NCBI GenBank assembly: GCA_017470425.1
Contig: JAFUYT010000021.1
Location: 62,001-126,000 of the forward strand
From: Bacteroidaceae bacterium
Lineage (GTDB): Bacteria; Bacteroidota; Bacteroidia; Bacteroidales; Bacteroidaceae
Length of the DNA: 64,000 bases
Reading direction: 5' to 3'
The position numbers and the translations under genes are program-made. The notes beneath the pieces were generated by a model. The model was not told the origin of the DNA. It made no database searches and saw only the letters and a list, made by a program, of their open reading frames with translations. Position 1 is the first letter of the stretch. Every line of letters begins with the position of its first letter. Positions 14,982 through 43,502 of the stretch are shown piece by piece.

Positions 14982-17460
14982 AGTCCACATAGTAGATTCG
15001 TTTCACGCGCGGCGAGACGGAGGTGAGGATTTCGTAGGGGATGGTGCCGATGGCATCGGAGAGCACCGACGGGGGCAGGTCCGGCCCGAAGATGACGGCG
15101 GTGTCGCCTTCACGGCAGTCGATGTCGGTGACGTCGATCATGCAGACATCCATGCAGATGTTGCCCACGTAGGGCGCTTTCTGCCCGTTCACGAGACAAT
15201 AGCCATTGCCGCAGCCAAGATGGCGGTCAAGTCCGTCGGCATAGCCGATGGGGAGCGCCGCGATGCGGCTGTCCCGCGACAGGTGGCCCTTGCGGGAGTA
15301 GCCCACGGTGTCGGTGGCCGGCACGTCGTGGATCTGCAGGATGGTGGTCTTGAGCGTAGAGATGCAGGAGAGCATCTCGTTGTTGCGGGCATTGATGCCA
15401 TATAGCCCCAGTCCGAGACGCACCATGTCGCAGTGGCGCTCGGGGAAGTGTTCGATGCCGGCGCTATTGCAGATATGGCGCAGGATGCGATGCGGGAAGG
15501 CAGCCTGCAAGCGGTCGGCAGCCTCGCTGAAGAGCGTCCACTGGTGTTCAGAGAAGGCGTCGAAGTCGTCGCTGTCGGAGCCCACGAAGTGCGAGAACAC
15601 CGAGCGCACGATGAGCGCCTTCTGCGCCTGCAGGCGTCGGATGAGCTCGTCGAGGTCCTTCTGCGGTTCGAAGCCGAGGCGATGCATACCCGTGTCAAGC
15701 TTCACGTGGATGGGGAAGTTCGTGATGCCCTCGCGCTCCGCTGCGTGGGAGAGCGCATCGAGCAGGCGGAAGCTATATACCTCCGGTTCGAGGCCATATT
15801 CAAAGAGGGTGCGGAACGACGACATCTCGGGATTCATCACCATGATGTTGGCCGTGATGCCGGCGCGGCGCAGCTCCACGCCCTCATCGGCCACTGCCAC
15901 GGCGAGGTAATCGACGCGGTGGTCCTGCAGCGTGCGCGCAATCTCCACAGCTCCGGCACCGTAGGCCGATGCCTTGACCATGCAGACCATCTTTGTCTCG
16001 GGACGCATGAAGGCGCGATAGTAGTTGAGGTTATCTACGACGGCCGAGAGGTTGACCTCGAGAATGGTCTCGTGGACCTTCTGCACGAGGGCGTCGGCGA
16101 TGCGGTCGAAGCGGGCCTGACGGGCACCCTTGATGAGGACGATGCAGTCCTTCAAGTCTCCGACGAGAGAAGAGGCAAGGAAGGTGTCGATGCCTGAGAA
16201 GGTATGAGTGGGCAAGGTAGATGGTCCATTGTCCACGTTCGCCATGCCCGCGCTGACCTCCGGTCCGATGCCGATGAACTCATCCACGCCGTACTGGCGG
16301 ATGAGGTCGGCGACCTGACGGTAGAGGTCGGTGAGGGTGAGACCCGTCTGCTTGATGTCGGAGAGGATGAGGACGCGGCGACGGCCGGCGGCCTCGGGGC
16401 GGCGACGCATGAAGTCGAGGGCAATCTCGAGCGAGCCGAGGTCGCTGTTGCAGGTGTCGGTGATGAGGGTGCAGCCATTGCGCCCCTCCTTCACTTCCAG
16501 GCGCATCGCGACGGGTTCCAGGCGCTGTATGCGCTCGCGGATGACTGCGTCGGGGAGACCAAGGTAGCGGCAGACGCAGATGCACGTGCAGACGTTCTCG
16601 ATTCCAGCGAGGGACTCTCCCCCCAGCCCCTCCTTATAAGGGAGGGGAGTAGTCACTGTTGTCCCCTGAACGCTGTCTGTCACGGAAAGTATATACTCTC
16701 CTCCCTCAGAGGGAGAGGCAGGGGGGAGAGTCCTCCACCCGATGAGCTGTCCCTTGAAACCACTGCGGGCGATGCAGTCGCTGACGAGCTCATCGTCGGC
16801 GTGGTAGATGAGCACCTCGGCATCGCGGAAGAGGCGCAGCTTCTCCATGCATTTCTCGCGACGGTCGGCGAAGTTCTCGTCGTGGGCGGAACCAAGATGT
16901 GTGAGTACACCGATAGTAGGCTGGATGATGCCCTGCAGGGCGTCCATCTCCCCCGACTCACTGATACCGGCCTCGAAGATGCCCAGCTGCGTCTGCTCCG
17001 AGAGGCGCCACACGGAGAGGGGCACACCAATCTGCGAGTTCCAGGAGCGCGGCGAGCGCGTGATGTTGAAGTCCGGGGCAAGAAGCTGGTAGAGCCACTC
17101 CTTGACAATGGTCTTGCCGTTGGAGCCGGTGATGCCGATGACGGGGATGTTCAGTTCCTCGCGGTGGCGCTCTGCCAGGCGCTGTAGCGCCTTCAGGGGG
17201 GAGGGCACCTGCAAGTAGTTGGCATCCGCCTCGGGGTGTTCGGGGAGCTGGCTGACGACGAAGTTGCGCACGCCGCGGCCGTAGAGTTCAGGGATATAGC
17301 GATGACCGTCGTTCTTCGCCGTGCGGATGGCAAAGAAGAGCGAGTCCTCGGGAAAAACGAGGGAACGGCTGTCGGTGAGCAGCCAGTTGATACGGCTGTC
17401 AGCCGTACCGATGCGATGGGCACCTATGAGGGTGGCGATGGTGACGATGGAATAGGTCAT
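14980..17460 (-). CDS. Bifunctional MurF ligase / alanine racemase
   Basis: An 826-residue fusion typical of Bacteroidota. The N-terminal half (about 1-455) is UDP-MurNAc-tripeptide:D-Ala-D-Ala ligase, with the ATP loop GITGSNGKTIVKEW. The C-terminal half is a PLP alanine racemase with VKASAYGAG (PLP lysine at residue 496), DTGMHRLGFEP and the late GNICMDVCMIDV. It supplies D-Ala and joins D-Ala-D-Ala to the peptidoglycan precursor in the cytoplasm. Residues about 242-283 are an in-frame palindromic insert (16612-16733). The start overlaps the stop of the GSCFA gene by 4 bases, so they form an operon. Confidence 0.95.
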   Translation of the reverse strand: MTYSIVTIATLIGAHRIGTADSRINWLLTDSRSLVFPEDSLFFAIRTAKNDGHRYIPELYGRGVRNFVVSQLPEHPEADANYLQVPSPLKALQRLAERHREELNIPVIGITGSNGKTIVKEWLYQLLAPDFNITRSPRSWNSQIGVPLSVWRLSEQTQLGIFEAGISESGEMDALQGIIQPTIGVLTHLGSAHDENFADRREKCMEKLRLFRDAEVLIYHADDELVSDCIARSGFKGQLIGWRTLPPASPSEGGEYILSVTDSVQGTTVTTPLPYKEGLGGESLAGIENVCTCICVCRYLGLPDAVIRERIQRLEPVAMRLEVKEGRNGCTLITDTCNSDLGSLEIALDFMRRRPEAAGRRRVLILSDIKQTGLTLTDLYRQVADLIRQYGVDEFIGIGPEVSAGMANVDNGPSTLPTHTFSGIDTFLASSLVGDLKDCIVLIKGARQARFDRIADALVQKVHETILEVNLSAVVDNLNYYRAFMRPETKMVCMVKASAYGAGAVEIARTLQDHRVDYLAVAVADEGVELRRAGITANIMVMNPEMSSFRTLFEYGLEPEVYSFRLLDALSHAAEREGITNFPIHVKLDTGMHRLGFEPQKDLDELIRRLQAQKALIVRSVFSHFVGSDSDDFDAFSEHQWTLFSEAADRLQAAFPHRILRHICNSAGIEHFPERHCDMVRLGLGLYGINARNNEMLSCISTLKTTILQIHDVPATDTVGYSRKGHLSRDSRIAALPIGYADGLDRHLGCGNGYCLVNGQKAPYVGNICMDVCMIDVTDIDCREGDTAVIFGPDLPPSVLSDAIGTIPYEILTSVSPRVKRIYYVD
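16612..16733. repeat. Inverted-pair palindromic element inside murF-alr
   Basis: About 122 bp bounded by GGACTCTCCCCCC and its inverse GGGGGGAGAGTCC. Each end has an inner palindrome (for example CCCCTCC-TTATAA-GGGAGGGG). The core between the ends has no repeats. It encodes the segment from LPPASPSEGGEY to PLPYKEGLGGES, which has no place in the MurF fold. The reading frame is kept. Confidence 0.85.
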
Positions 17461-20361: not shown

Positions 20362-20435
20362 ATTGTGAATTATGAATTGTGAATTATGAATTGCGAATTG
20401 TGAATTATGAATTGTGAATTATGAATTATGAATTG
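20355..20435. repeat. 7-nt tandem repeat (AATTATG/AATTGTG), dxs-trkA spacer
   Basis: About eleven imperfect copies of AATTATG, AATTGTG or AATTGCG fill the whole 76-base spacer and include the dxs stop codon. AT-rich in strong contrast to both neighbours. Confidence 0.95.
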
Positions 20436-20437
20436 AC

Positions 20438-21817
20438 ATGAAAATAATCATCGCCGGTGCAGGAGCGGTCGGCAGCCATCTGGCAGCCCTGCTCACGAAA
20501 GAGAACCACGACATCGTCCTGCTGGATGAGGACAGCGCCAAGCTGGCCGCCATCAGCGACGGGCTGGATCTGATGACCCTGAACGTCTCGCCAACGAGCA
20601 TCAGCGGCCTGAAGGAAGCGGGGACGCCGCAGGCGGATCTGTTCATCGCCGTGACACCCTCCGAGACGAAGAACCTGACGTGCTCCATGCTGGCCCACAG
20701 CCTGGGCGCCAAGAAGACCGTGGCGCGCATCGACAATGCCGAGTACCTGAAGCCGGCGAACCGCGATTTCTTCACCTCGCTGGGCATCAGCTCCCTCATC
20801 TATCCCGAGGTGCTGGCAGCGCAGGAGATCGTGGCGGGCGTGCAACGCTCGTGGGTGCGGCAATGGTGGGAGGTGCACGGCGGCGCCCTCGTCATCCTGG
20901 GCATCAAGCTGCGCGAGGAGGCCGTGGCGCTCTTCGGACAGCCGCTCAAGGACCTGTGCAAACCCGACTCACCCTACCACATCGTGGCCATCAAGCGCGA
21001 CGAAGAGACGATCATCCCTGGCGGCTTCGACGAGCTGAAGTTGGGCGACATCGCCTACTTCATGACAACGAAGAAGTTCGTGCCCAGCATCCGGCAACTG
21101 GTGGGCAAGGACAGCTACCCCGACGTGAAGAAAGTCATGATCATGGGCGGCGGGCGCATCGCCGTACAGACCTGCCACCGGCTGCCTGACTACATGGACG
21201 TGAAGCTTATCGAGCAGGACGCCGACCGCAGCCGCAAGCTGACGGAGCTGCTCGACAACGACAACGTGCTCATCATCAACGGCGACGGCCGCGACACGCA
21301 GCTGCTGCTGGAGGAAGGCATCCGACAGACGCAGGCTTTCTGCGCCCTCACGGCCGAGACGGAGACGAACATCCTGGCGTGCCTCGCCGCCAAGCGCATG
21401 GGCGTGCGCAAGACGGTGGCGCTCGTGGAGAACTCGGAGTATATCACGATGGCAGAGAAGCTGGACATCGGCACCATCATCAACAAGAAGGCCATCGCCG
21501 CAGGCCACATCTACCAGATGCTGCTGGCGGCGGACGTGGCGAGCGTGAAGAGCCTCACCATCGCCGACGCCGACGTGGCGGAGTTCGATGTCAGCGAGGG
21601 CGCCCTCGTGACGCGGCAGCCGGTCATGAAGCTGGGTCTGCCGAAGGGCATCACCATCGGCGGCATCGTGCGGGGCGGCGAGGGGTTCCTCGTCAACGGC
21701 AGCACGCAGATCATGCCGGGCGACCGCGTCGTGGTGTTCTCGCGCACGGCGCTGTTCAAGCAGCTGGACCGCTTCTTCAAGAAGCCCGAGGGCGGTCTGT
21801 TCTCCATCTTCCATTAA
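20438..21817 (+). CDS. trkA: Trk potassium uptake regulator TrkA
   Basis: A 459-residue cytoplasmic protein with two Rossmann RCK-N/RCK-C halves. The N-terminal NAD(H) loop is IIAGAGAVGSHLAALL; the second half repeats the fold with VMIMGGGRIAVQTC and VALVENSEYI. Each half ends with a TrkA-C domain (LKLGDIAYFM and IMPGDRVVVFSR). It binds the membrane part TrkH and gates potassium uptake; no trkH is in the neighbourhood, which is unusual for Bacteroidales, where the two genes are often adjacent. No internal insert is seen. Confidence 0.94.
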   Translation: MKIIIAGAGAVGSHLAALLTKENHDIVLLDEDSAKLAAISDGLDLMTLNVSPTSISGLKEAGTPQADLFIAVTPSETKNLTCSMLAHSLGAKKTVARIDNAEYLKPANRDFFTSLGISSLIYPEVLAAQEIVAGVQRSWVRQWWEVHGGALVILGIKLREEAVALFGQPLKDLCKPDSPYHIVAIKRDEETIIPGGFDELKLGDIAYFMTTKKFVPSIRQLVGKDSYPDVKKVMIMGGGRIAVQTCHRLPDYMDVKLIEQDADRSRKLTELLDNDNVLIINGDGRDTQLLLEEGIRQTQAFCALTAETETNILACLAAKRMGVRKTVALVENSEYITMAEKLDIGTIINKKAIAAGHIYQMLLAADVASVKSLTIADADVAEFDVSEGALVTRQPVMKLGLPKGITIGGIVRGGEGFLVNGSTQIMPGDRVVVFSRTALFKQLDRFFKKPEGGLFSIFH

Positions 21818-21866: not shown

Positions 21867-24026
21867 ATGAAGAATTCAAGACAAAACGCACCCTCCCTCG
21901 CAGGGAGGGTGAGAGGCCGGACGGCCACCTTCCGCCGGTTCTCGCGCGGCGGCTACGCCATCTTTGCCAGCCTGCACCGCGAAGTGCGCATCGGCGTGCT
22001 CACGGTAGGGATGCTGGCCAGCGTGAACATCCCCAAGGCACAGGCGCTGCAAGTGAGCACCCACCCCGACACCGAGGACAGCGCCGACGAGAAGGAACTC
22101 GCGGAGGTCTCCGTAGCGGGCACGATGGCGCCGCTGACGGCCCTGCAGTCCGCCCGCATCGTGGGCGTCATCACCCGCCAGGAGATTGAATCGTCGGCGG
22201 CGCAAAGCGTCAACGACCTCTTGAAATTAGCCGTCGGCGTAGATGTCCGGCAGCGCGGCGGCTTTGGTATTCAGACGGACATCAGCATTGATGGCGGCAC
22301 GTTCGACCAAATCACTCTTCTGCTGAACGGCGTCAACATCAGTTCCCCCCACACAGGCCATCTGGCCGCAGACTTCCCCGTCAGCCTCTCCGACATCGAG
22401 CGCATCGAGGTGCTCGAGGGCGCTGCCTCACGCGTCTATGGCGCCTCCGCCTTCGGGGGAGCCATCAACATCGTGACAAAAAGACCCACCTCCAACCTCT
22501 CCCGTGAGGGAGGGGAGACCTCCGGTGAGGGAGGCAAGAACCATTTATTCTCCGTTGATGCCGGCGTGCACGGCGGCAGCTACCTGACCTTGGGCGGCGA
22601 TGCACGCGTGGCACTGTCTGCACGTCCGTCAAGCCCCTCCCTGACGGGAGGGGTATGGGGTGGGTCTTTATCTGCCACCTACCAGCGCAGCGACGGCGCC
22701 ACGACGAACTCCGACTTCCAGCGCGGCCAGGCCTACCTCAGCGGCGGCTACGATGCCGAGAGCTTCCGCATCGACCTGCAGGCGGGCTACAGCCAGAAGG
22801 CCTACGGCGCCAACACGTTCTACAGCGCCGCCTACCCGAATCAGTATGAGCGCAACCGCCGCTTTTTCGTCAGCCTCGGCGCCGAGACGAAAGGGCGCGT
22901 GCGCGTGCGTCCGGAAGTCTATTGGAACCGCCTCCTGGACAACTTCGAGCTCATCCGCGACACGCCCACGGGCGAGAACTTCCACCGCTCGGACGTGCAC
23001 GGAGCTCGCGTCAGCGCCGACCTGCGCTGGGCAGCAGGGCGCACCGCCCTCGGCGCAGAGGTGCGCGAGGAGGGCATCTACAGCACCGCCCTCGGCCTGC
23101 CACTGAACAACCCGACGACCCACAAGGTGCCGGGCGAGGACCTCTTCTACGCGAAGCACGACAACCGCACCAACTTCAGCATCAACGCAGAGCACAACAT
23201 CCTGCTGCCCCGCTTCACGGCCAGCATCGGCGTGCTGGCGAACTACAACACACGCTTCGACAGCCGCCTGCGCTTCTACCCCGGCGTAGATCTGGCCTAC
23301 ACGCCGGCAACCCACTGGCGCCTGTTCGCGTCCTACAACAAGGGCTTCCGCCTGCCCACCTTCACCGACCTCTACTACAAGAGTCCCACCCACGAGGGCA
23401 ACCAGGGCATGAGCGCCGAGGAGAGCCACAGCGTGCAGCTCGGCGCCACCTACCGCACGGAGGCCGTCGATGCCACCGTGAAGGCTTTCTACCACCGCGG
23501 CACGAACATGATCGACTGGGTGATGTACACGGCGGACGATGTCTTCCACAGCGCCAACTTCGACCTGGACAATATGGGCGTGCAGGCACAGGCCACCGTG
23601 CGCTTTGCGCCGCTCTTCGGGAAGGCGGACAGCTACCTCCAGCGCCTCAGCGTGGGCTACACCTATCTCCACCAGCAGCGGCGCGACGACACGGAGATCT
23701 ACAAGTCGAACTACGCCATGGAGTACCTGCGCCACAAGCTGGTGGCGACGCTCGATCACCGCATCGTCTCGCACCTCAGCGCCTCGTGGTGCGTGCGCTG
23801 GCAGGACCGCATGGGCGACTACATCCTCTACGAGGACGGGCGCTCCACGGGGCAGCTCGTCAGCTACTCGCCCTACGCCACGCTGGACCTGAAGCTGCGC
23901 TGGACGGATCGCCACTATGAGGTGTGGGTCGAGGGCACGAACCTCACCAACCACACCTACTACGACCTGGGCAACATCCCGCAGCCCGGCATCGTCGTGC
24001 TCGCCGGAGCACGGGTGAGGTTCTAA
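21867..24026 (+). CDS. TonB-dependent outer-membrane receptor
   Basis: A 719-residue receptor. After a palindrome-encoded N-terminus comes FSRGGYAIFASLHREVRIGVL, the extended signal region typical of BtuB-like receptors in Prevotella and Bacteroides, cleaved near QALQ. The plug (about 90-195) shows VNDLLKLAVGVDVRQRGG, IDGGTFDQITLLLNGV and VYGASAFGGAINIVTKRP; the barrel runs to the end with the final aromatic-like pattern ARVRF. There is no carboxypeptidase-like N-terminal domain, so it is not SusC-like; vitamin or metal-chelate uptake is likely, ligand unknown. Residues 8-15 and 205-267 are palindromic insert segments. It stands alone. Confidence 0.92.
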   Translation: MKNSRQNAPSLAGRVRGRTATFRRFSRGGYAIFASLHREVRIGVLTVGMLASVNIPKAQALQVSTHPDTEDSADEKELAEVSVAGTMAPLTALQSARIVGVITRQEIESSAAQSVNDLLKLAVGVDVRQRGGFGIQTDISIDGGTFDQITLLLNGVNISSPHTGHLAADFPVSLSDIERIEVLEGAASRVYGASAFGGAINIVTKRPTSNLSREGGETSGEGGKNHLFSVDAGVHGGSYLTLGGDARVALSARPSSPSLTGGVWGGSLSATYQRSDGATTNSDFQRGQAYLSGGYDAESFRIDLQAGYSQKAYGANTFYSAAYPNQYERNRRFFVSLGAETKGRVRVRPEVYWNRLLDNFELIRDTPTGENFHRSDVHGARVSADLRWAAGRTALGAEVREEGIYSTALGLPLNNPTTHKVPGEDLFYAKHDNRTNFSINAEHNILLPRFTASIGVLANYNTRFDSRLRFYPGVDLAYTPATHWRLFASYNKGFRLPTFTDLYYKSPTHEGNQGMSAEESHSVQLGATYRTEAVDATVKAFYHRGTNMIDWVMYTADDVFHSANFDLDNMGVQAQATVRFAPLFGKADSYLQRLSVGYTYLHQQRRDDTEIYKSNYAMEYLRHKLVATLDHRIVSHLSASWCVRWQDRMGDYILYEDGRSTGQLVSYSPYATLDLKLRWTDRHYEVWVEGTNLTNHTYYDLGNIPQPGIVVLAGARVRF
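21889..21911. repeat. Short palindrome at the start of the TonB receptor
   Basis: CACCCTCCCT, loop CGC, AGGGAGGGTG: perfect 10-bp arms 22 bases after the start codon, encoding part of APSLAGRVRG. Confidence 0.8.
22481..22667. repeat. Inverted-pair palindromic element inside the TonB receptor
   Basis: Starts AAGACCCACC and ends GGTGGGTCTT. The two ~35-bp ends are inverted copies of each other (six mismatches by eye), each with an inner CTCCCGTGAGGGAG-type palindrome. The core between them is ordinary barrel-like coding sequence (HLFSVDAGVHGG), so part may be original gene. In frame. Confidence 0.85.
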
Positions 24027-27755: not shown

Positions 27756-27853
27756 GTGGATCACCAAGGTGATCCACCTTAAAGCACGCGACCTTTAACG
27801 TCGAAGGACGCAACGTGTGGAGTGGATCACCAAGGTGATCCACTCCACACGTT
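27756..27853. repeat. Two related palindromes between dnaA and cstA
   Basis: GTGGATCACC-AA-GGTGATCCAC at 27756-27777, and the same core extended to perfect 20-bp arms at 27812-27831 / 27834-27853. A third, smaller inverted repeat (CGTTAC/GTAACG) follows at 27850-27866. No T-run follows on either strand. Could act as a terminator for cstA or as a protein-binding site. Confidence 0.8.
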
Positions 27854-30572: not shown

Positions 30573-32738
30573 TTAATAGATGACGGCGGCGCACTGGGGC
30601 TGCAGGGTCAGCTGCACGCGGCCGCGCTTATCGGTCTTGAGGGGTGACTGCTGGGGTGTCTGGCCGTCGGCGCCGTCGTGGAGGAGGACTGTAAAGGACT
30701 CAGCGACTGAATCGCTGAGCGCACTCAGGTCGAGGGTGAGGGTCTTGGGCGTGGCTTCGGCGTTCATGGCGGCGATGTACCAGCGGTCGGCGTGGCGACG
30801 GGCAAGGACGATGTACTTGCCGGGATAGCCGTCGATGAAGCGGGTCTCGTCCCATGTGGTGGGCACCTGACGCATGAAGACGAGTTCGAACTGGGGCTGC
30901 TCCGTGAGGTTGCGGGGCGTGAGGGCGAAGTTCTGGCCGCTGCACTGGAAGGCGATGGCGGTGGCGAGCTCGAAGATGTCGCTGGTGCGGCGCGTGTTGC
31001 CCTTGCCGGGCTGGCGGTGGAGGCGGCGCTGGAGCACCGTGCCGCCGTACTCCATCGAACCTACGGCATTGCGCACGAAGGGATGCAGCGTGGCGTGGCG
31101 CGCCTCCATATCGCAGAACGCCTGTCCGAAGTAGAGGTTCTCGCTGGCGAGGACAGCCTCAGAGCCGCAGTAGTTGGGGTACATACGCTCCCAGCCGCGC
31201 GGCAGCGTGCAGCCGTGGAAGATGACCTGAATGCCGTAGTCGTTGGCATCGGAGAGGATGGCTTCGTAGAGGCGCAGGGTCTCCTGCTTGTCTCCGCCAA
31301 AGAAATCGACCTTGATGCCGGCTACGCCGCCGTCGCGCAACCATCGCATCTCCTGCTTGCGCACGATGGGGTTGTGCATGGCCTGACGGGCACACTGCGG
31401 GGCATCGTTCCAGCCGCCGTTGCTGTTGTACCACACCCAGGGGCGCACGCCTTTCTGCTTGCAATAGGCGAAGAGCTTCTCCATGCCTGCACGGCCGATG
31501 TGCTCGTACCATCCGCCGTCGATCAGACAGCCTTCCCAGCCGAGGGCGGCGGCGAGGTCGATGAACTGCACCTGGTCGTCGTAGTTGATGCTCTCGTCCT
31601 GCCAGAGGATCCATGACCACGTATTGCGCGAGCCTTGATAATTGATAGAGGGTTCATAGAGCTGATCGACGACATCCCATGTGACGGTGGTCTCCACGAT
31701 GGGCTTCAGCGAGGGGCCGAAGGTGAGGGTGCGCCAGGGGGTGAAGCCGGCGTGGTCGTCGTAGGCGTTGGTCTTGCAGTTGCCGAGGCCGAACTGTGCG
31801 CCGGTGCTGCCGAAGCCGTTGTTCTCACCCTCCATGGGGAAGGCGATGGTGAAGAGGCCGTCGGAGGTGGCGTCAGAGAGGTGCGTGCCGCAGTAATCGC
31901 CCGTGGTGCCGGTCTCGGAAATGAGGAGCCAAGAAGCCCCGCTCCCCGCTCCCCCCGTGGGGGGGAGGGCCGCCAAGCCTTTGCCGTCATTCAATTCCGA
32001 GGATAAGGAGTCCTCCCCCCCACGGGGGGAGTTAGAGAGGGGCTTTATCTTGAACAAACACGGGAAGGTCCAGCCGTGGCCGTACTGGCTGCGGGTGGTG
32101 ATGGGTTCATCCCAGATGTAGTATTCCTCATAGCTGGGCTTCGTGCGCTTCCACCCTATCTGCGCATCGCTCTGGGGGCAGATGAAGGCGGTGGCGTCGA
32201 TGGGCAGACGGAAGCCGGTGGCCTCGCCGGTGACGACGATGGAGCCGGCCTCGCCGCCTTGCAGGAAGCGGTAGCGGTAGGCGATGTTATTGTTGAAGAC
32301 GCTGAACTGCACGGTCATCAGCACGCCGCTCTTCTTGGCTTTCGGCGTGGTGAGCACGAGGCCGAGGCCGTTCTCCTCGCTGTTGACCTCGCTCTGCTTG
32401 CCCTGACGGAGGCGGTAGCTGTGCTTGATGGTGGCGTCGGGGCGCAGTGTCTCCACGAGGGTCAGGTCCTTGGAGAAGTCGGCCACGTCGGTATATACGC
32501 CGAGAGGCGAGTCGAGGAGTACAGGCACGTCGAGCGTATCTGCCTTCGCTCCTTTCTTCTTGGCTTTCACTACGGTGCGATAACCGGCGGAGTACGAGAG
32601 CCTGCCGTCCGTGAGCTTCACGTCGAGGTAGGTGAGGCCGTCGGGGGAGAGGACGCGGTGAGACTGCGCCATCGCTGGCGCAGAAATGATAAATAATAAA
32701 TAATAAATAACAAATGATAATTTTGCTACTTGCTTCAT
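30573..32738 (-). CDS. Secreted glycoside hydrolase family 97 protein
   Basis: A 721-residue enzyme starting at MKQVAKLSF (an in-frame ATG at 32750 would add MHKV). The N-terminal beta-sandwich (about 25-280), the (beta/alpha)8 barrel with WSWILWQDESINYDDQ, GWEGCLIDGGWYE and GIKVDFFGGDKQ, and the C-terminal sheet match GH97. The Asp of KVDFF is the likely nucleophile seen in the retaining alpha-galactosidase subgroup; the substrate is inferred. The hydrophobic core of the signal peptide (VIYYLLFIIS) is encoded by a 7-nt tandem repeat. Residues about 231-268 are a palindromic insert. The ATG 32750 would overlap the four-helix gene. Confidence 0.92.
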   Translation of the reverse strand: MKQVAKLSFVIYYLLFIISAPAMAQSHRVLSPDGLTYLDVKLTDGRLSYSAGYRTVVKAKKKGAKADTLDVPVLLDSPLGVYTDVADFSKDLTLVETLRPDATIKHSYRLRQGKQSEVNSEENGLGLVLTTPKAKKSGVLMTVQFSVFNNNIAYRYRFLQGGEAGSIVVTGEATGFRLPIDATAFICPQSDAQIGWKRTKPSYEEYYIWDEPITTRSQYGHGWTFPCLFKIKPLSNSPRGGEDSLSSELNDGKGLAALPPTGGAGSGASWLLISETGTTGDYCGTHLSDATSDGLFTIAFPMEGENNGFGSTGAQFGLGNCKTNAYDDHAGFTPWRTLTFGPSLKPIVETTVTWDVVDQLYEPSINYQGSRNTWSWILWQDESINYDDQVQFIDLAAALGWEGCLIDGGWYEHIGRAGMEKLFAYCKQKGVRPWVWYNSNGGWNDAPQCARQAMHNPIVRKQEMRWLRDGGVAGIKVDFFGGDKQETLRLYEAILSDANDYGIQVIFHGCTLPRGWERMYPNYCGSEAVLASENLYFGQAFCDMEARHATLHPFVRNAVGSMEYGGTVLQRRLHRQPGKGNTRRTSDIFELATAIAFQCSGQNFALTPRNLTEQPQFELVFMRQVPTTWDETRFIDGYPGKYIVLARRHADRWYIAAMNAEATPKTLTLDLSALSDSVAESFTVLLHDGADGQTPQQSPLKTDKRGRVQLTLQPQCAAVIY
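30699..30719. repeat. Short palindrome inside GH97
   Basis: CTCAGCGA, loop CTGAA, TCGCTGAG: 8-bp arms, differing at few positions from the fmt palindrome at 5431. It encodes LSDSVAES in the C-terminal sheet. Confidence 0.65.
31934..32045. repeat. Inverted-pair palindromic element inside GH97
   Basis: 112 bp starting AAGCCCC and ending GGGGCTT. Both ends carry CTCCCCCCGTGGGGGGGAG-type palindromes; the core reads GTCATTCAATTCCGAGGATA. It encodes KPLSNSPRGGEDSLSS to LPPTGGAGSGA in frame, the same peptide types as in the helicase gene. Confidence 0.92.
32690..32726. repeat. 7-nt tandem repeat in the GH97 signal-peptide region
   Basis: AAATAAT-type heptads (TTATTATTTA on the coding strand), about five units, inside the GH97 reading frame next to the four-helix gene end. 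Confidence 0.9.
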
Positions 32739-33140: not shown

Positions 33141-35384
33141 CTAGAACTGCCATCCGCGGAAGAGGAGACCGCTGCCTTCGAGTTCGGCGCCAAAGTAGAA
33201 GCCGACGTTGGTGGGCTGATTGTAGCCGACATTCTGCATGGTCACACTGTGACGATAGACTGGTTCGGCAAGGAATGTATGGAAGCGGTACTTCGTGGGG
33301 ATGGGGGTGATGTAGAGACGGAGGTGCTGGTTGTCGGCGGTGCGGCAGAGCACTTCCTCGCGCCAGTCGCCAAGGACGTCGGCGCAGAGGGCGGGGTTGG
33401 ACTTGGTGCCGTTGTTGAAGGCGCAGCCTTCCATCTTAAAGAGCTCCACGACAGAGGAGGAGCCGGTGAAGTCGAAAGGTAAGCCCCTCTCCATCTCCCC
33501 CCGTGGGGGGGAGAGCGTCAAATCCTTTGGACTCTCTTTCTGAGGATGAAGAGTCCTCCCCCCCACGGGGGGAGTTAGAGAGGGGCCATAGGTCTTATAT
33601 TTTGTCACCCTCTCGTGATCCAGCAACTCTCTTAGGAGGTCGCCGTCCCACCAGATGCCGAAGTTGATGGGTATGCGGGCGGTGCTGTCAATGACCTCGC
33701 CGCGGACGTTGCAGATGCCGCCGGAAGCAGAGGACCACATCTCAAGGCCGGGGTTCGTGGGGTCGATGTCGGCGGCCATACAACGACCGACATCCTTATT
33801 GGAGAGAATCTGGAAGAGAACCTTGCCCGTGCGGGCGTCACGGAAGTCACTGCCGTCGCGCTTGTTCTCATGGCAGTCCCAGACCTGGAGGGGAGACCCA
33901 CACTCAGCAGACCCACCCCCCTGCCCCTCCCTTGTAGGGAGGGGAGTAGATACCTGTGAACGTTTGGTATCCTCCTCTACCAGAGATTCCTGTAAGCTTT
34001 TTGTATCAGCTACCACCCTTGATGGTGTTGGAGGATAGAACACCGTCAGGTGGATGGCATCGCCGTGGCCGAAGCCGGTGTTGTAGAGGGGTGAGCCGTC
34101 GTGATCCACGGCCATGGAGCCGTAGGTAATCTCATCGCAGCCGTCGCCATCGACGTCGCCGATGCGGAGGTTGTGGTTGCCCTGTCCGGCGTAGCTGCGC
34201 TTGTCTTCGTCGTTGGTGTCGAAGACCCAGCGGACGGAGAGGTCTTTGCCGTCGAAGTCGTAGGCGGCGATGACGGTGCGGGTGTAGTAGCCGCGGCAGA
34301 AGATGGCGGAGAGGTGCTCGCCGTCGAGGTAGCCGCAGGCGGCAAGGAAGCGGTCGCTGCGGTTGGCGTAGTTGTCGCCCCAGCTGCGTAGTTCGCCGCG
34401 CTCAGGGATGTAATCGACGGTGCTGAGGGCCTTACCCGTGCGGCCGTCGAAGCAAGTGACCCATTCGGGACCTTTATAGATGAAGCCGCCACGACGTGCC
34501 TTGCGGTCCATGTTATCGGGCCATCCCGGACCTCGGAACTGCTCGCGCGGGTTGCCGTTGGCCTGGTATTCACCGGTGTCGGGGTGGCGGACATGGTCGG
34601 CCTTGGGGTCGCCGAGGACGGTGCCTGTGCCGTCGATGGTGCCATCGGAGGTGCGCACGAGGAGCTCGGAGCGGCCGTCGCCGTCGAGGTCGGCGACGAT
34701 GAAGGGTGTGTAGTGGGCGCCGCTGCGGATGTTAGGGCCGAGGTTGACGCGCCAGAGGGAGGTGCCGTCGAGGCGGAGGGCTTCAAGGATGGTGGGCGAG
34801 GTGATGCCGCTCTGGCTGTTGTCGCGGGAGTTGGAGGGATCCCATTTGAGGATGATCTCCAGCTGGCCGTCGCCGTCGAGGTCGGCCATGGTGGCGTCGT
34901 TGGCGTTGTAGGTGACGGATCCGCCGGACGAACCGGCGGACACAGTGCCTTCGGGCGGAGTGAGGGGTATATCTATGTAGCCGAGGGGTGCGTGGGCAGG
35001 GAGGGTCCATTTGCCGGTGTATAAGGGCAGGGTCTCTTTCTTCAGGTCGGAGGGAACGCGGCCGTTCTTATAGACAGGGCGCACGGAATACTCGGCAGCC
35101 AGGCTCTCGGGGTTGTAATCCATGAGGAAGGTTGGCTCGTCGGCTCCGCGCGTGGCGATGAGACGGCCGTCGCGAAACACTTCAAAGCTGACATCTTCGG
35201 GCTCACTGGGCAGATAGCGCCACTGGATGCATACGCTGTCGGGTGTCGTGCGGAAAGCTACCACGCCGCGGTTTAGGCGCTCGCGCTGGAGGCGGGAGTA
35301 GTCGTAAGCGGTCTGCGCAGAGAGGGGGAGCGTTGATAGCATCAACGCATACAGAACGGCAGTTAGGGGGAGGAGACGCTTCAT
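33141..35384 (-). CDS. Rhamnogalacturonan lyase, PL11
   Basis: A 747-residue secreted lyase that cleaves the rhamnogalacturonan I backbone by beta-elimination. Signal peptide MKRLLPLTAVLYALMLSTLPLSAQ; then the N-terminal Ig-like part (ERLNRGVVAFRTTPDSVCIQWRYL) and the eight-blade propeller with repeated DLDGDG calcium-binding motifs (MADLDGDGQLEI, VADLDGDGRSEL, GDVDGDGCDEI) and GDWREEVLCR near the C-terminus. Two in-frame foreign segments occur, residues about 452-498 and 599-634. With the neighbours GH97 and GH43/GH51 elsewhere it fits pectin use. Confidence 0.93.
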   Translation of the reverse strand: MKRLLPLTAVLYALMLSTLPLSAQTAYDYSRLQRERLNRGVVAFRTTPDSVCIQWRYLPSEPEDVSFEVFRDGRLIATRGADEPTFLMDYNPESLAAEYSVRPVYKNGRVPSDLKKETLPLYTGKWTLPAHAPLGYIDIPLTPPEGTVSAGSSGGSVTYNANDATMADLDGDGQLEIILKWDPSNSRDNSQSGITSPTILEALRLDGTSLWRVNLGPNIRSGAHYTPFIVADLDGDGRSELLVRTSDGTIDGTGTVLGDPKADHVRHPDTGEYQANGNPREQFRGPGWPDNMDRKARRGGFIYKGPEWVTCFDGRTGKALSTVDYIPERGELRSWGDNYANRSDRFLAACGYLDGEHLSAIFCRGYYTRTVIAAYDFDGKDLSVRWVFDTNDEDKRSYAGQGNHNLRIGDVDGDGCDEITYGSMAVDHDGSPLYNTGFGHGDAIHLTVFYPPTPSRVVADTKSLQESLVEEDTKRSQVSTPLPTREGQGGGSAECGSPLQVWDCHENKRDGSDFRDARTGKVLFQILSNKDVGRCMAADIDPTNPGLEMWSSASGGICNVRGEVIDSTARIPINFGIWWDGDLLRELLDHERVTKYKTYGPSLTPPVGGRTLHPQKESPKDLTLSPPRGEMERGLPFDFTGSSSVVELFKMEGCAFNNGTKSNPALCADVLGDWREEVLCRTADNQHLRLYITPIPTKYRFHTFLAEPVYRHSVTMQNVGYNQPTNVGFYFGAELEGSGLLFRGWQF
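33481..33587. repeat. Inverted-pair palindromic element inside PL11 (first)
   Basis: 107 bp, AAGCCCCTCTCCATC... to ...AGTTAGAGAGGGGCC, both ends holding CCCCCCGTGGGGGG palindromes. It encodes PSLTPPVGGRT to LSPPRGEMERGL. Same family as the GH97 and helicase copies, read in another frame. Confidence 0.9.
33890..34028. repeat. Foreign segment with single palindrome inside PL11 (second)
   Basis: Contains one arm AGACCCACCCCCCTGCCCCT then TTGTAGGGAGGGG (33909-33945), the GACCCACC family; no second arm is found. It encodes STPLPTREGQGGGS and an adjoining unrelated stretch that is missing from the usual PL11 pattern. Confidence 0.7.
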
Positions 35385-36495: not shown

Positions 36496-36502
36496 TCTTT
36501 GA

Positions 36503-36690
36503 GAATTCATAATTCACAATTCATAATTCATAATTGGAGTATCTCGTAACCATATCTCATTGCATTGTGCATTGTACATTATGAATTGTGAATTATGAAT
36601 TGTGCATTATGAATTATGCATTATGAATTATGCATTATGAATTGTGAATTATGAATTATGAATTATGAATTATGCATTATGAATTGACAA
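36503..36690. repeat. 7-nt tandem repeat (AATTCAT/AATTATG) between ATPase and DUF4435
   Basis: AATTATG/AATTGTG/CATTATG heptads in two blocks (36503-36536 and 36562-36690). They provide the last codons (NS) and stop of the ATPase, and an alternative start of DUF4435. Confidence 0.95.
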
Positions 36691-37501
36691 TGATGTCTTC
36701 GACATCCGTCACGCAGTCGCCCCAGCCGCTCATGATGACGGCGGGGGAGTGGGTGGTGAGAATGACTTGGGCGTTGGGGTTGAGGTCGGTGATGAGCTCG
36801 AGGAGGCGCTGCTGCCATTCGATATGGAGGCTGATCTCGGGTTCGTCCATCAGGAGGACATAGGGCTGGCGGTCTTCAACGAGGACGGTCAGCAGGATGA
36901 TGAGCATCTGCTTCTCGCCGGACGAGAGGAGGTAGGGCGTGATGCGCTCGCCGAGATGCAGGAAGAAGATCTCGTTGCTCGAGCGGTCGATGCGCTTACC
37001 CGTCGCTTTGAAGAGTTCATCCACGAGGTCCTGGAAATGTCCCTTCTCGGCAGCAATCTCGGCGGCCTTGGCCTGCGCCTCGGGATCGGCAGCGGTGAAG
37101 AGGGCCACGATGCGGTTGCTCTGGTTCACCTGGTAGTCGAGGAAGCGGCGCTGGAGCTGGTAGAGCTGCCAGTCGAGCTCGGTGGTGAGGCGCGCCTCGG
37201 TGACCCGCGCGAGGATGTCGGCACTGACGAGCGGACGATCGACACCGCGGATGACGTCGAAGCGCACGCTGTCGGCCTCCTCGGGAGAGAAGGTCAGATG
37301 TACGCCCAGCTTGTTGTAGTCGCGCTCCAGCTCGTCCTTGCCACGGGTGAGCTGTCGGATGGTCTTACGCAGGATGGTGCTCTTCCCCACCCCATTGATG
37401 CCGCTGAGGACGTTGACGCCCGGCTGCAGATCCCAGACGATATGGCGTACGCCCTTCCAGAGCGAATCAATCTCGATGCGTTTGATGTAGTTTCCGGTCA
37501 T
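36677..37501 (-). CDS. AAA ATPase, AriA-like
   Basis: A 274-residue ABC-type AAA ATPase (AAA_15/AAA_21). Walker A GINGVGKST at 34-42, the signature-like YLLSSGEKQMLIILLTVL, Walker B YVLLMDEPEISLH, and a late ILTTHSPAV switch region are present. Compact, with no long coiled-coil insert. Such ATPases team with DUF4435 proteins in PARIS, where AriA holds AriB inactive until a phage protein is sensed. The partner gene is downstream. It is smaller than the studied AriA, so a housekeeping or other role remains possible. The promoter box TATCTTTG lies at 37564-37571. Confidence 0.88.
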   Translation of the reverse strand: MTGNYIKRIEIDSLWKGVRHIVWDLQPGVNVLSGINGVGKSTILRKTIRQLTRGKDELERDYNKLGVHLTFSPEEADSVRFDVIRGVDRPLVSADILARVTEARLTTELDWQLYQLQRRFLDYQVNQSNRIVALFTAADPEAQAKAAEIAAEKGHFQDLVDELFKATGKRIDRSSNEIFFLHLGERITPYLLSSGEKQMLIILLTVLVEDRQPYVLLMDEPEISLHIEWQQRLLELITDLNPNAQVILTTHSPAVIMSGWGDCVTDVEDIIVNS

Positions 37502-38117: not shown

Positions 38118-41100
38118 AGACCTTCTCCTCAATCGTCTGGAAGACAACGAAGAGCGAGGGCACGAAAAGGATGAGGGCGAGGGTGCCGATGAGCATACCG
38201 CCCACGGTGCCTACGCCCAGCGAGATATTGCCGTTGGCACCGGCGCCCGTGGCAAACATCATGGGCAGCAGACCGAAGACCATCGTCAGCGAGGTCATCA
38301 GAATCGGGCGCAGGCGTACCTTGGCCGCTGAAAGGGCAGCACGGGGAATGGACATTCCAGCCCGACGGCGCTCCGAAGCGTACTCGGTCAACAGGATGGC
38401 GGTCTTCGAGAGCAGGCCGATAAGCATGATGACGCCCGTCTGCATGTAGATATTGTTCTCCAAACCGAACATCTTGGCAAAGAGGAAGGAGCCCATCAGG
38501 CCGAAGGGCACGCTGAGGATGATGGCCAAGGGTATGAAGAGGCTCTCGTACAAAGCGCAAAGAATCAAATAGATGAAGATGATGCAGATGGCGAAGACCA
38601 TCACCGTGTTCTGCCCTGCAGATGCTTCCTCGCGGCTCATGCCGGCAAACTCATAGCCATAGCCTTCGGGCAGGATGCGGGCAGCCTCCTCGCGTACCGC
38701 CTGCAGCGCCTGACCAGAGCTAAAGCCTTTCTCAGGCATACCGCTGACTTGAATGGCGGGGAAGAGGTTGAAGCGGGTGAGGTTGGCCGTGCCGAGGATG
38801 GGTTTCAGCTCTACGAAGCCCGAGACGGGAGCCATGGAGCCGTCGCTCGCGCGCACGTACATATTATTTAATGACTGCTCGTCGAGGCGCGCCGTCACCT
38901 CTGCCTGCACCATCACACGGTAGAGCTTCGAGAACTTGTTCATGTTGGACGAATACGAGCCGCCGATGTACCCCGAGAGACACGCGAGGACGTCGGAGGG
39001 CGAGACACCAGCCCGCTTGCAGCGGGCGGCATCGACGGTGAGGCGATACTGCGGATAGCGGTTGTTGAAGGAGGTCTGCGAGCGCGAGATCTCGGGGCGG
39101 GCCTGCAGGGCTGCTATCAGACGGTTGGTGACAGCCATGAGTGAATCGACGCCGCGGTCCTGATGGTCCTGCACCTGCAACTCGAAGCCATTGGTGGCGC
39201 CGTAGCCGCTGATCATAGGCTGCGTGAAAGCCATAATCTTAGCCTCGCTGATGTCCGCGAGCCGATGGTTGACCTCAGCCATGACGCTCTTCAAGTCGTC
39301 GCCCTTGCCCTTGCGCTCGTCCCAATTCTTCAGACGCAGCAGGAACATACCGTTGTTGGAACTCTGCCCTGCCATACGGCTGACGCCCACGCTCTTGGAG
39401 TAAGCCTTGATCTGCGGCAAATCCACGATGCGCTCCTCCACGCGGTTCATCATCTGATGCGTCGCGTCCTTGGTGCTGCCGGGCTGCGTCTGCACGGTGA
39501 CATAGATGACGCCCATATCCTCGTCGGGCACGAGTGCCGTCTTGGTGGTGCGCAGGAGGTAGAAGAAACTGATGAGGGCAGCGGCTACAAGCAGGAAGGT
39601 GAGCCAGGGACGGCGGATAAAACAACTGACCCACCCCCGGACTCCTCCCGTGAGGGAGGGGAGGCTTGAAGTGACCTTTGACCACAAGGAAGCAACCCCG
39701 CGCAGCCTTTCCCCTCCCTCACGGGCGGGGTTAGGGGTGGGTCTTTTCATCAGCCTCGCACACAGCGCCGGGCTGAGCGTCAAGGCATTAATCAATGAGA
39801 TGAGCACGGCCACGGCCATGGTCAGACCGAACTGCGTATAGAAAATGCCACTGGTGCCGCCCATGAAGCAGACCGGGATGAACACGGCCATGAAGACAAG
39901 CGTCGATGTGATGAGGGCGGTGGTGACTTCGTTCATGGCGGCGAGGGTGGCTGAGGAGCCGCTCGCGGCTCCCTTTTCCGTCTTCGCCTGCACAGCCTCT
40001 GCCACCACGATGGCATCATCCACCACCGTACCGATGACCAGCACCAAGGCAAAGAGCGTCAGGGTGTTGAGCGAAAAGCCAGCGATGTAGAGGAAGGCGA
40101 AGGTGCCGACGAGGGAGACGACGATGGCCACGAGGGGAACCAGCGTGGCACGCCATGAGCGCAGGAAGAGCAGCACGACGAGCACGACAAGGATAGCAGC
40201 TTCGAAGAGCGTGCGCTCGACACTGTTGATGCTGGCATCAAGAAAGTCCTTGGTGGACATCAGGTCGATCAGTTCCATGTCGGCAGGCAGGTCCTTGCGG
40301 ATTTCCTCGACGAGTTTGTCGATGGCGATGATGATCTCGTTGGCATTGGAGCCGGGCGTCTGCGAGATCATACACGTAGATCCCGGGTGACCATTGATCT
40401 CACCCTCGATGGCATAGCCTTGGAGGCCCATTTCCACGCGGGCGACGTCCTTCAGACGCAGCACGGTGCCGTCGGCATCTGCGCGGATAACAAGGTTCTC
40501 GTAGTCGGACTCTTCCTCGTAGCGGCCGCGATACTTCAGGACGTACTGGAACGTGTTCTCGCTCTCCTCGCCCAGCGTGCCTGCCGGGCTCTCGACGTTC
40601 TGCTCGGCCAGCACAGCGGTTATGTCGGAGGGCATCAGATGGTGCTGCGCCATCTTAGCGGGATCGAGCCAGATGCGCATGGAGTAGTTGCTGCCATAGA
40701 CATCCACCTCGCCCACGCCCGGCACACGCGACAGGCGCGGCTCGATGTTGATCTTGAAGTAGTTGTTCAGGAAAGCGAGGTCGTAGGTGCCGCCGGGGCT
40801 GTAGAGACCAAGGCTTTTCAGCGTAGAGGTCTGGCGGCGCATGACGGTGACACCCGTTCGGGTGACCTCGGCTGGCAGCAAGCCCTGCGCCTGTGCCACG
40901 CGGTTCTGCACGTTGACCGTCGCCATATCGGGGTCGGTGCCCTGCTTGAAGAAGACATTGATGCGTGCCGAACCGTTGTTGGAAGCGTTGGAGGTCATGT
41001 AGAGCATATTCTCCACACCATTGATGGCCTCCTCAAGCGGCACGACGACCGACTTCTGCAGCGTCTCGGCATTGGCGCCCGTATAGTTGGCCCCCACGCT

Positions 41101-41363: not shown

Positions 41364-43502
41364 ATGTCAGAAAGTCCTATCACCATTCTCCAGCGTCAGC
41401 GTGCGCTCTTGCAGACAGAGTATGCCTACGAGAAAGCTGAGTTCCAACGTCTCACGGAAGCCACGGGCATCGAACAGAAGGTGCGCCGCGGCGTGGCGTG
41501 GTATCCGCTGACGCTCGGTAGGAGCTACCACAACTCGCTGGATCAGTTGGTGGTGGAGGTAAAGCCCCTCTCTAACTCCCCCCGTGGGGGGGAGGACGCT
41601 TTGTCCTCTGGCAAAGGAACTAAGACAACAAGCGGAAACGCAGCCCTCCCCCCCACGGGGGGAGCAGGGAGAGGGGCCGAAGAGCCGTCGCTCTTCGAGC
41701 CCGGCAAGCCCGTCTGCTTCTTCTCGCAGGATGCCAGCGGCGATCGCCACGGCACGGGTGGCTTGCTACATTATTATAAGTTCGTGGCACAGGTAAGCTA
41801 CGTCGAAGACAACCGGATGGTGATAGCACTGCCCTCACCCGATGCGTTAGAACAAATCCGCGATGCGTATCGACTCGGCGTGCAACTGTATTTAGACGAG
41901 CAGACCTACCGCCTGATGTTCGAGGCACTGGATGATGTCATCACCGCTAAGACGGGCCGCCTGGCTGACCTGCGCGAGATGTTCCACTCTACCCTACCCT
42001 GCGGCAGGTTCACCTTCGCGCCCGTCCGCTTCCCGTGGCTGAACACGAGCCAGCAGGCAGCTGTGAACGAGGTGCTTTGGGCCAAGGATGTAGCCGTGGT
42101 GCACGGCCCTCCGGGCACGGGCAAGACGACGACGCTGGTCGAGGCCATCTACGAGACGCTGCGACGCGAGAACCAAGTGCTGGTGTGTGCCCAGTCGAAC
42201 ATGGCGGTAGATTGGATTGCGGAAAAACTTGTCGATCGGGGCGTCAGCGTGCTGCGCATCGGCAACCCCACGCGTGTGACCGATAAGATGCTGGGGTTCA
42301 CCTATGAGCGCCGTTTCGAGAGCCACCCGCTCTACACCGAGCTGTGGGGCGTGCGCAAAGCCATCCGCGACATCTACGCCAGCAAGAGCGGCAGCAGCGA
42401 GAGCCGCCATCAGAAGATTGCGCGTCTGAAAGACCGTGCCACCGACCTCGAGTACACCATCAACCAGGCGCTCTTCGACGATGCCAAGGTCATCGCCAGC
42501 ACGCTTGCAGGTTCTGCCAACCGTCTGCTCACAGGCATGAAGTTCGGCACATTGTTCATCGACGAGGCGGCACAAGCCTTGGAAGCCGCGTGCTGGATTG
42601 CGATCCGCAAGGCACACCGCGTCATCCTCGCTGGCGACCACCGCCAGCTGCCGCCTACCATCAAGTCGCCCGAGGCGATGCACGGCGGGCTGGACAAGAC
42701 GCTGATGGAAGCCATCGTAGAGAACAAGCCGAAAGCTGTCTCGCTGCTGACGGTGCAGTACCGTATGTGCGACACGATTATGCAGTTCCCCAACCGCGAG
42801 TTCTACGAAGGGAAGCTGCAGAGCGCGCCAGAGGTGAAGTACCGCGGGATATTGGACTGGGATACGGCTGTGGAGTGGGTGGATAAGCCCCTCTCTAACT
42901 CCCCCCGTGGGGGGGAGAACAGGCCCCTCTCTAACTCCCCCCGTGGGGGGGAGAACTCCTTGTCCTCTGGCAAAGGAACTAAGACGACAAGCGGAAACGA
43001 AGCCCTCCCCCCCACGGGGGGAGCTGGAGAGGGGCTTACTCTCCCCCCCACGGGGGGAGCTGGAGAGGGGCTTGCCGGCCTCTCTCGCATCAATATTTCC
43101 GAAGCCCAACTCACGCTCGCCACACTCCAGCGCTACTTCGAGAAGATCGGGAAGGACAGGATTCTGGAGGAGCGCGTCGATGTGGGCATCATCTCACCCT
43201 ACAAGGCACAGGTGCAACTGCTCCGGCGCCTCTTGAAGCAAGACCGCTACTGGAAGCCCTTCCGCTCGCTCATCACCGTGAACTCCGTGGATGGCTTCCA
43301 GGGACAGGAGCGCGACGTCATCGTCATCAGCCTGGTGCGCAGCAACGAGCAGGGCGACATCGGTTTCCTGCGCGACCTGCGCCGCATGAATGTGGCCATC
43401 ACGCGCGCACGCATGAAACTTATTATTATAGGCGACCGCAGCACGATATGCCGTATGCCGTTCTACCGCCGCCTTGCAGAATATGTAGATGAGCAATGGT
43501 GA
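41364..43502 (+). CDS. DNA2/NAM7 (UPF1-like) superfamily 1 helicase
   Basis: A 712-residue helicase of the IGHMBP2/DNA2 type. Walker A is GPPGTGKTTTLVEA after the Q-motif LNTSQQAAVNEVL; the Walker B is LFIDEAAQALE; AGDHRQLPPTIKSP is motif III; ITVNSVDGFQGQERDVIV and NVAITRARMKLIIIG are motifs V and VI. Minus two inserts (residues about 66-105 and 507-570) it is about 610 residues, normal for the family. The second insert lies between motif IV and V, the first in the N-terminal beta-barrel region. All motifs survive, so activity is plausible. Its stop overlaps the next start. Confidence 0.93.
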   Translation: MSESPITILQRQRALLQTEYAYEKAEFQRLTEATGIEQKVRRGVAWYPLTLGRSYHNSLDQLVVEVKPLSNSPRGGEDALSSGKGTKTTSGNAALPPTGGAGRGAEEPSLFEPGKPVCFFSQDASGDRHGTGGLLHYYKFVAQVSYVEDNRMVIALPSPDALEQIRDAYRLGVQLYLDEQTYRLMFEALDDVITAKTGRLADLREMFHSTLPCGRFTFAPVRFPWLNTSQQAAVNEVLWAKDVAVVHGPPGTGKTTTLVEAIYETLRRENQVLVCAQSNMAVDWIAEKLVDRGVSVLRIGNPTRVTDKMLGFTYERRFESHPLYTELWGVRKAIRDIYASKSGSSESRHQKIARLKDRATDLEYTINQALFDDAKVIASTLAGSANRLLTGMKFGTLFIDEAAQALEAACWIAIRKAHRVILAGDHRQLPPTIKSPEAMHGGLDKTLMEAIVENKPKAVSLLTVQYRMCDTIMQFPNREFYEGKLQSAPEVKYRGILDWDTAVEWVDKPLSNSPRGGENRPLSNSPRGGENSLSSGKGTKTTSGNEALPPTGGAGEGLTLPPTGGAGEGLAGLSRINISEAQLTLATLQRYFEKIGKDRILEERVDVGIISPYKAQVQLLRRLLKQDRYWKPFRSLITVNSVDGFQGQERDVIVISLVRSNEQGDIGFLRDLRRMNVAITRARMKLIIIGDRSTICRMPFYRRLAEYVDEQW
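41562..41678. repeat. Inverted-pair palindromic element inside helicase (first)
   Basis: 117 bp, AAGCCCCTCTCTAACTC... to ...GAGCAGGGAGAGGGGCC. Ends carry CCCCCCGTGGGGGGG palindromes; core TTGTCCTCTGGCAAAGGAAC. Encodes KPLSNSPRGGEDALSSGKG to LPPTGGAGRGA. Confidence 0.95.
42885..43073. repeat. Nested double palindromic element inside helicase (second)
   Basis: 189 bp: two left arms in tandem (42885-42919, 42922-42953), a core nearly identical to the first copy, then two right arms (about 43003-43036, 43039-43073). It looks like one element inserted in, or recombined with, another. Encodes PLSNSPRGGE twice and LPPTGGAGEGL twice. Confidence 0.95.

Follow-up and report, generated by a model that had tools for sequence, protein, structure and literature searches.

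Palindromic inserts in a helicase gene and its surroundings

A gene for an IGHMBP2/Upf1-like superfamily 1 helicase, the ORF of which matched both AAA_11 and AAA_12 in a Pfam scan, lies in the 64-kb stretch of DNA that was analysed as a whole (hereafter the window), and carries two copies of a palindromic element that we named family A (Table 1). The sequence-only reading that preceded this work had described two copies in this gene, each with inverted palindromic arms around a core and the second with doubled arms, and these descriptions, with the coordinates given, were confirmed: the two copies have in common a 117-nt direct repeat (91%), the centre of copy 2 is flanked by 84-nt inverted arms (85% complementary), and the arm doubling of copy 2 has a 36-nt period on either side, its left arms being identical at 34 of 36 positions. 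Copy 1, folded as a single RNA strand, formed one long stem (about 30 pairs) that is closed by the core as its loop (-82.8 kcal/mol, z = -9.2).

The helicase ORF stays open across both inserts, in agreement with the in-frame, tolerated insertion that had been proposed. The predicted reading of family A is a Pro/Gly/Ser-rich linker, PLSNSPRGGED...ALPPTGGAGRGA. In an AlphaFold2 model of the helicase, obtained with 32 helicases as input (mean pLDDT 73.5), the two longest stretches with pLDDT < 50 (aa 71-106 and aa 512-573) were the two inserts, and both insert peptides are thus predicted to be disordered, as the earlier reading had suspected. Site 1 lies between strands predicted with confidence (block means pLDDT 87 and 84), and the flanks of site 2 are moderate in the model (pLDDT 68 and 62).

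Table 1 Helicase gene, its inserts and other palindromic inserts in the 64-kb window
Feature	Position in window	Strand	Basis
Host gene, IGHMBP2/Upf1-like superfamily 1 helicase, 712 aa	41364..43502	+	ORF, Pfam
Family A element copy 1, in frame, aa 67-105	41562..41678	+	
Left-arm palindrome, copy 1	41576..41594	+	
Right-arm palindrome, copy 1	41646..41664	-	
Family A element copy 2, two left and two right arms, in frame, aa 508-570	42885..43073	+	
Family A element, in frame, GH97 glycoside hydrolase gene	31936..32044	-	
Family A element, rhamnogalacturonan lyase gene, other open sense frame (SLTPPVGG)	33482..33587	-	
Family B (second palindromic family) insert, in frame, RND-efflux-like ORF	39628..39743	-	
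Family B arm pair, in frame, TonB-receptor-like ORF	22483..22666	+	
Other-family palindromic insert, in frame, MurF-Alr-like ORF	16613..16732	-	
Other-family single arm, in frame, rhamnogalacturonan lyase gene	33910..33946	-	weak model match E 1.5, hairpin stem 9

Searching the window with an arm 20-mer (up to three mismatches) gave 8 matches against 0.01 expected. Inserts of family A, of family B and of other families were found in further genes of the window; the names RND-efflux-like, MurF-Alr-like and TonB-receptor-like come from reading the ORF sequences.

Two other kinds of repeat were noted in the window. Arrays of 14-bp units (ATTATGAATTGTGA and variants), direct and inverted, lie at 20355-20452 and 36496-36717, about 16 kb apart. 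A third hairpin family (GTGGATCACCAAGGTGATCCAC), paired and outside gene calls, was seen at 27756-27853 and again at 5133-5220 of another locus (L221).

Family A across the source genome

In the source genome (G000; 2.4 Mb, 36 contigs, 72% complete), the 19-nt arm palindrome gave 116 matches (57 + 59) at up to two mismatches, and the reversed arm, used as a control in the same genome, gave 0. Loci were fetched from the 100 of these 116 arm matches that were listed, and 54 clusters were read among them: 33 simple inverted pairs, 12 lone arms and 9 complex clusters, with doubled arms or tandem cores; two of the 54 (L040 and L051) appear to be the same locus, seen at contig ends, which leaves 53. 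A family A unit, about 105 nt long and without genes of its own, consists of two palindromic arms in inverted orientation with a variable core between them, and folds into a single long hairpin. The commonest left arm is GCCCCTCTCTAACTCCCCCCGTGGGGGGGAGGAC, right arms end in ..GGGGGGAGCGGGGAGAGGGGC or a variant of it, and the arm-to-arm spacing was 58 to 70 nt in 31 of the 33 simple pairs. At L015, L040 and L051, the core and one palindrome are tandemly amplified in frame, in units of 63 or 69 nt, and the 36-nt arm doubling was also seen at lone arms (L289, L296 and L309). Since copies were recruited by near-perfect arms, arm conservation is biased upward in this set.

All 54 clusters lay within stop-to-stop ORFs of at least 206 aa. 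Because near-perfect arms select the copies that are found, the search was widened with two further patterns, one of them indel-tolerant and aimed at the outer arm, and with a covariance model. Matches to the indel-tolerant pattern numbered 90, against 1 in its control, the control of the 3-mismatch pattern gave 7, and one of the wider searches scored 150 of 954 first-look candidates. Fourteen extra loci were obtained, some of them only close kin of family A, of which 11 were in ORFs and three intergenic (a full element at L169, single arms at L176 and L178). Exclusive genic location, which had hinged on near-perfect arms, was therefore dropped. Among all loci read, family A or close kin, 64 of 67 were inside ORFs, a total that leaves out one 3-mismatch match (C26:25389, with a twin at C34:25441); the many copies that the earlier reading called for were thus found.

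Coding density, estimated with a crude gene caller over 464 kb (the window and 400 kb sampled without regard to elements), was 92%. Since 64/67 is close to this value, we do not claim a preference for genes, only the absence of the usual avoidance of them. In the unselected sample, look-alike arms were also present between genes (L228, L232 and L234), and GC-rich stems of any kind were denser intergenically (20 in about 35 kb vs 23 in 429 kb of genic sequence).

Pfam matches were obtained for 45 of the 49 host ORFs scanned; the other four (L013, L028, L052 and L058) had none, and strand and frame are unconfirmed there. The host genes, as named from these matches, include CysRS, MetRS, IleRS, ValRS, HisRS, ArgRS, PheT, TruA, TruB, TsaD, SpoU, Pth, a GyrB-type subunit, PurL, UvrA, a ClpB/C-type ATPase, FeoB and a carbamoyltransferase. 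Arm spacing equalled 1 modulo 3 in 28 of the 33 simple pairs, over seven different lengths, and the remaining 5 all measured 63. When sorted by arm type, 28 of the 33 simple pairs were in sense orientation and 5 were antisense; an exclusive sense orientation was rejected on this count, and one damaged copy (L021) fell on the opposite side in one of the sortings. Since the arms are inverted copies of each other, nearly the same arm peptides are read from both strands (P..SPRGGE / LPPTGG), and the antisense copies L009 and L011 show this likeness.

Empty, differently filled and decayed sites in related genomes

Arms with at most one mismatch were found in 24 of 101 genomes of the genus, G000 included (G015, 74; G088, 26; G097, 20; G016, 14). 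Exact arms occurred in 5 of 301 genomes of the family and, outside the genus, in 1 of 279, as a single match. At sites picked in G015, G088, G016 and G046, 43 of 47 clusters were within ORFs over 200 aa; the other four, all in G015, were outside long ORFs, and a few of the 43 were near an ORF end.

At some of these positions the inserts differ between related species. Site 1 of the outgroup helicases is a short loop; in congeners, sites 1 and 2 are occupied by a short loop, by a hairpin with a different sequence or by family A, the last at site 1 of G043 and G120 and, in decayed form, of G040. Element-free congeners exist at both helicase sites and at other sites, which bears out the empty sites expected in relatives. 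The outcomes named beforehand as contrary to insertion (the same segments in distant genera, or these copies alone and no empty sites) both failed to appear: sites were empty, copies were many, and the exact arm was in one of the 279 other-genus genomes.

In ValRS, most rows have the loop WEVADGEQPEAARIATQW or a similar one, hairpin inserts of four kinds replace loop codons in G000, G055, G119, G124 and G138, and a short extra stretch is present in G019, G134 and G136. Among the rows read for the MazG-like gene, G000, G105, G124 and G138 carry a hairpin insert. The filled ValRS, MazG and helicase loops lack host codons. In a ValRS/MazG tree built without the inserts, carriers were scattered among empty lineages (ValRS of G018 and G098 and MazG of G011 being labelled empty by default); G138 + G019 and G000 + G067 paired at full support, and the other nodes were weak (0.18 to 0.74). 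Common descent of the inserts in G000, G124 and G138 was not supported by this tree.

TruB carries family A or its decayed form in G000, G088, G105, G075 and G063, and family B in G138 and G019, with other or short loops elsewhere. The TruB arms are intact in G000 (116 arms genome-wide); in G088 (32 arms) there are two intact left arms and no intact right arm, and the arms are decayed in G105, G075 and G063 (0, 0 and 3 arms, respectively). These five genomes, a small set taken regardless of arm quality, fit homogenisation or re-insertion in a living family, and decay afterwards. Taking helicase site 1, site 2 and TruB together, 23 of 79 loops had a fold z <= -3 (20 of 76 without the three of G000) compared with 0 of 90 random control windows from the same helicase loci, the controls being uniformly 66 nt and placed anywhere in these loci and the loops spanning 33 to 279 nt.

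Some strong hairpins were observed in loops of short length. At L340-L343 (TruB of G119, G134, G125 and G136, respectively), the short loop alone forms a strong hairpin (z -7.9 to -11). At helicase site 1 of G105 (L182 1435-1530, reverse strand), a hairpin sits in a short natural loop (z -8.3); L200 has a similar hairpin (z -2.4) in which, by eye, both sides of the stem are changed.

Cores were more alike between neighbours than overall. In seven pairs of elements within 3.5 kb of each other, core similarity was 0.642 vs 0.16 overall, a value reached in 0 of 5000 permutations; one of the seven pairs reached only 0.30, and the helicase copies, another of the seven, 0.80. At four sites shared with a congener (PheT, ClpB/C-type, CysRS and SpoU), arms were identical at 258 of 272 positions, middles at 66, 66, 72 and 81%, and flanks at 73-90%, in pairs biased by the choice of each member for its good arms. 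In CysRS, the inter-arm stretch looks like host protein and is common to G016, so arms can act singly.

The sequence-only reading had also taken the doubled arms of copy 2 as one element inside another. Nesting of elements happens, as judged by eye at other loci: a family A element lies between apparent remnants of family B arms (L055:1514-1619), a family B arm stands at one side of a family A element (L044 and L054), and a decayed outer arm, 25/36 alike, adjoins a fresh arm (L055:4346). For the helicase copy this part of the claim is less secure, because lone arms too are doubled at 36 nt and doubled arms need not mean nesting; tandem 36-nt duplication is an alternative, and may be the source of other arm doublings as well.

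Likeness to known elements and mode of spread

The best-known in-frame palindromic inserts are those of intracellular Rickettsia, to which family A had been likened beforehand. The likeness held for the in-frame palindromic insert in a host protein whose family is still recognisable, and the inverted pair was rightly set apart; the closest architecture is instead that of REPIN/BIME. As Rickettsia palindromic elements are described in the available part of one paper (PMC3733652), they are in-frame palindromic inserts in unrelated proteins, TruB included; compared with that description, family A differs in having two inverted palindromes with a variable core between them, and in its Bacteroidales host.

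With MITEs, family A has terminal inverted repeats in common; with REPIN/BIME, as far as the accessible text describes them, it shares two conserved inverted palindromic ends, a variable spacer, a hairpin and the occurrence of singlets and doublets, at about 100 nt here. REPs are extragenic in that account, with 14 of 1,067 16-mers overlapping genes (PMC3116915), and tied to RAYT, whereas family A is mostly genic (64/67 loci in G000 and 43/47 congener clusters in ORFs), no Y1 gene was found in the incomplete source genome, and neither GTAG nor CGTC is present in the arm consensus of 27 aligned family A elements.

Intragenic GTAG/CGTC REP singles and dimers have been reported, in which dimers or groups code for 20-30 aa and which can occur twice in a gene; according to the portion of the paper at hand, their targets include tRNA synthetases and TruB, as well as recB of two Xanthomonas at about the same site, and CGTC repeats were reported from Bacteroidetes (PMC3733652). 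Those REPs, as portrayed there, are mostly intergenic with tagged ends, whereas here the consensus is tag-free, genes are the usual location and, across many congeners, a single loop is reused by several families. The RU-1/2/3 repeats of enterobacteria are small mobile repeats with open frames, inside some genes, described in the sections available as intergenic MITE-like units (PMC2759123); paired palindromic arms are the feature of family A here. A literature search over titles and abstract openings, covering few subscription papers, returned no description of such elements in Bacteroidales. Since in-frame REP dimers and Rickettsia palindromic elements are published, the kind is already known; what is new here is that genes are the usual home, that several families share loops, that stages range from fresh to decayed and that the consensus, tested for family A alone, holds no GTAG or CGTC.

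Family A is a high-copy family, REPIN-like in build, with most copies within genes, leaving the frame open and mainly pointing the same way; we consider it likely that it spreads as a folded strand, survives in permissive loops and later decays. The element would spread as a self-folding single strand, often across a few kilobases, and the survivors would be the copies in permissive protein loops with an open frame. Several families would reuse the same loops because, as we propose, a resident insert is safe DNA for the next insertion. In an abundant family, arms would be kept near-perfect through re-insertion or conversion; once the family is extinct, a copy would decay to an ordinary linker and the protein would retain an altered loop. 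For the copying step, replication-coupled template switching or arm-arm recombination would be favoured over a resident transposase, since Y1 was not found, host codons are missing and, by eye, the 33 junctions had no consistent target-site duplication, with no close empty allele fixing the ends.

Spread of the arms through template switching and ectopic recombination without any transposase, as a by-product of palindrome-driven replication errors, is a plausible alternative, which we place a little below even chances. The alike cores of near neighbours, the 36-nt arm doublings, the tandem cores in L015, L040 and L051, the missing host codons at filled sites and the lack of consistent end duplication all speak for it, as does the ClpB/C-type ATPase of G000 and G015, which has the same site and arms with different cores. 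However, most elements have no second copy within 3.5 kb, and arrival at an unrelated site requires more than short homology.

It appears unlikely that family A is a genuine REPIN and owes its movement to a trans-acting Y1 (RAYT-type) transposase, the gene of which was lost or lies in the unassembled part of the genome. The architecture (inverted conserved ends, variable spacer, hairpin) matches that of REPINs as given in the available part of PMC3116915, full-length Y1 genes exist in the genus, one of them in the arm-bearing G088, and a Bacteroidetes subclass of Y1 has atypical flanking structures with copies elsewhere in the genome, according to the accessible text of PMC6006769. Nevertheless, no PF01797 match was obtained in G000 (72% complete), nor in G015, G016 (92% complete) and G097 (94% complete), all of which bear arms; of the 8 among 101 genomes with at least 10 arms, only G088 has a full-length Y1, and G042 and G043 have weak partial ones; and the 8 Y1 loci other than that of G088 adjoin other hairpins (GTAG-tagged in L211 and L214), none of them family A-like. 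Phage carriage was also considered and set aside, the exact 27-mer not being found in viral contigs.

More doubtful still is a reading of core-protein loops in this genus as landing pads, in which unrelated hairpin cassettes replace one another, together with resident codons, through a DNA-level loop swap. If it were true, the core proteome would be continually provided with new disordered linkers, and invasion would be followed by homogenisation while the family is alive and then by decay to ordinary protein.

We find it very improbable that the hairpin acts at the RNA level (translational bypass, pausing or processing) and is retained for that. In its favour, the folds are very stable (-82.8 kcal/mol for copy 1) and arms are more alike than cores or flanks at the four shared sites, a biased sample; against it, frames are open through whole elements and spacing is in threes in 28/33 pairs, which bypass does not need, the arms have decayed where the family has disappeared from the genome, and many congeners have no insert. 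Ribosomal bypass and RNA splicing are likewise disfavoured by frames that are open throughout the elements. There is equally little to recommend inserts as selected linkers that improve host proteins: the same loops are longer in several congeners, but sequence and family are free to vary per loop, frame and orientation differ among copies, and many congeners keep short loops.

On the preferred account of a REPIN-built family surviving in permissive loops, the inserts should add floppy loops to core proteins. REPs are the textbook extragenic elements, and here in-frame palindromic inserts lie in aminoacyl-tRNA synthetases, TruB, a GyrB-type gene and many other core genes, in a lineage most closely related to gut and rumen genomes. 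For annotation and structure prediction this is a warning: in these genomes, some variable loops are mobile DNA. Congeners present sites that are empty, freshly hit, hit by another family, nested or decayed, and whether selfish palindromes make lasting segments of essential proteins is therefore testable across these stages; with family A arms in 24 of the 101 genomes, more than one species is open to such study.
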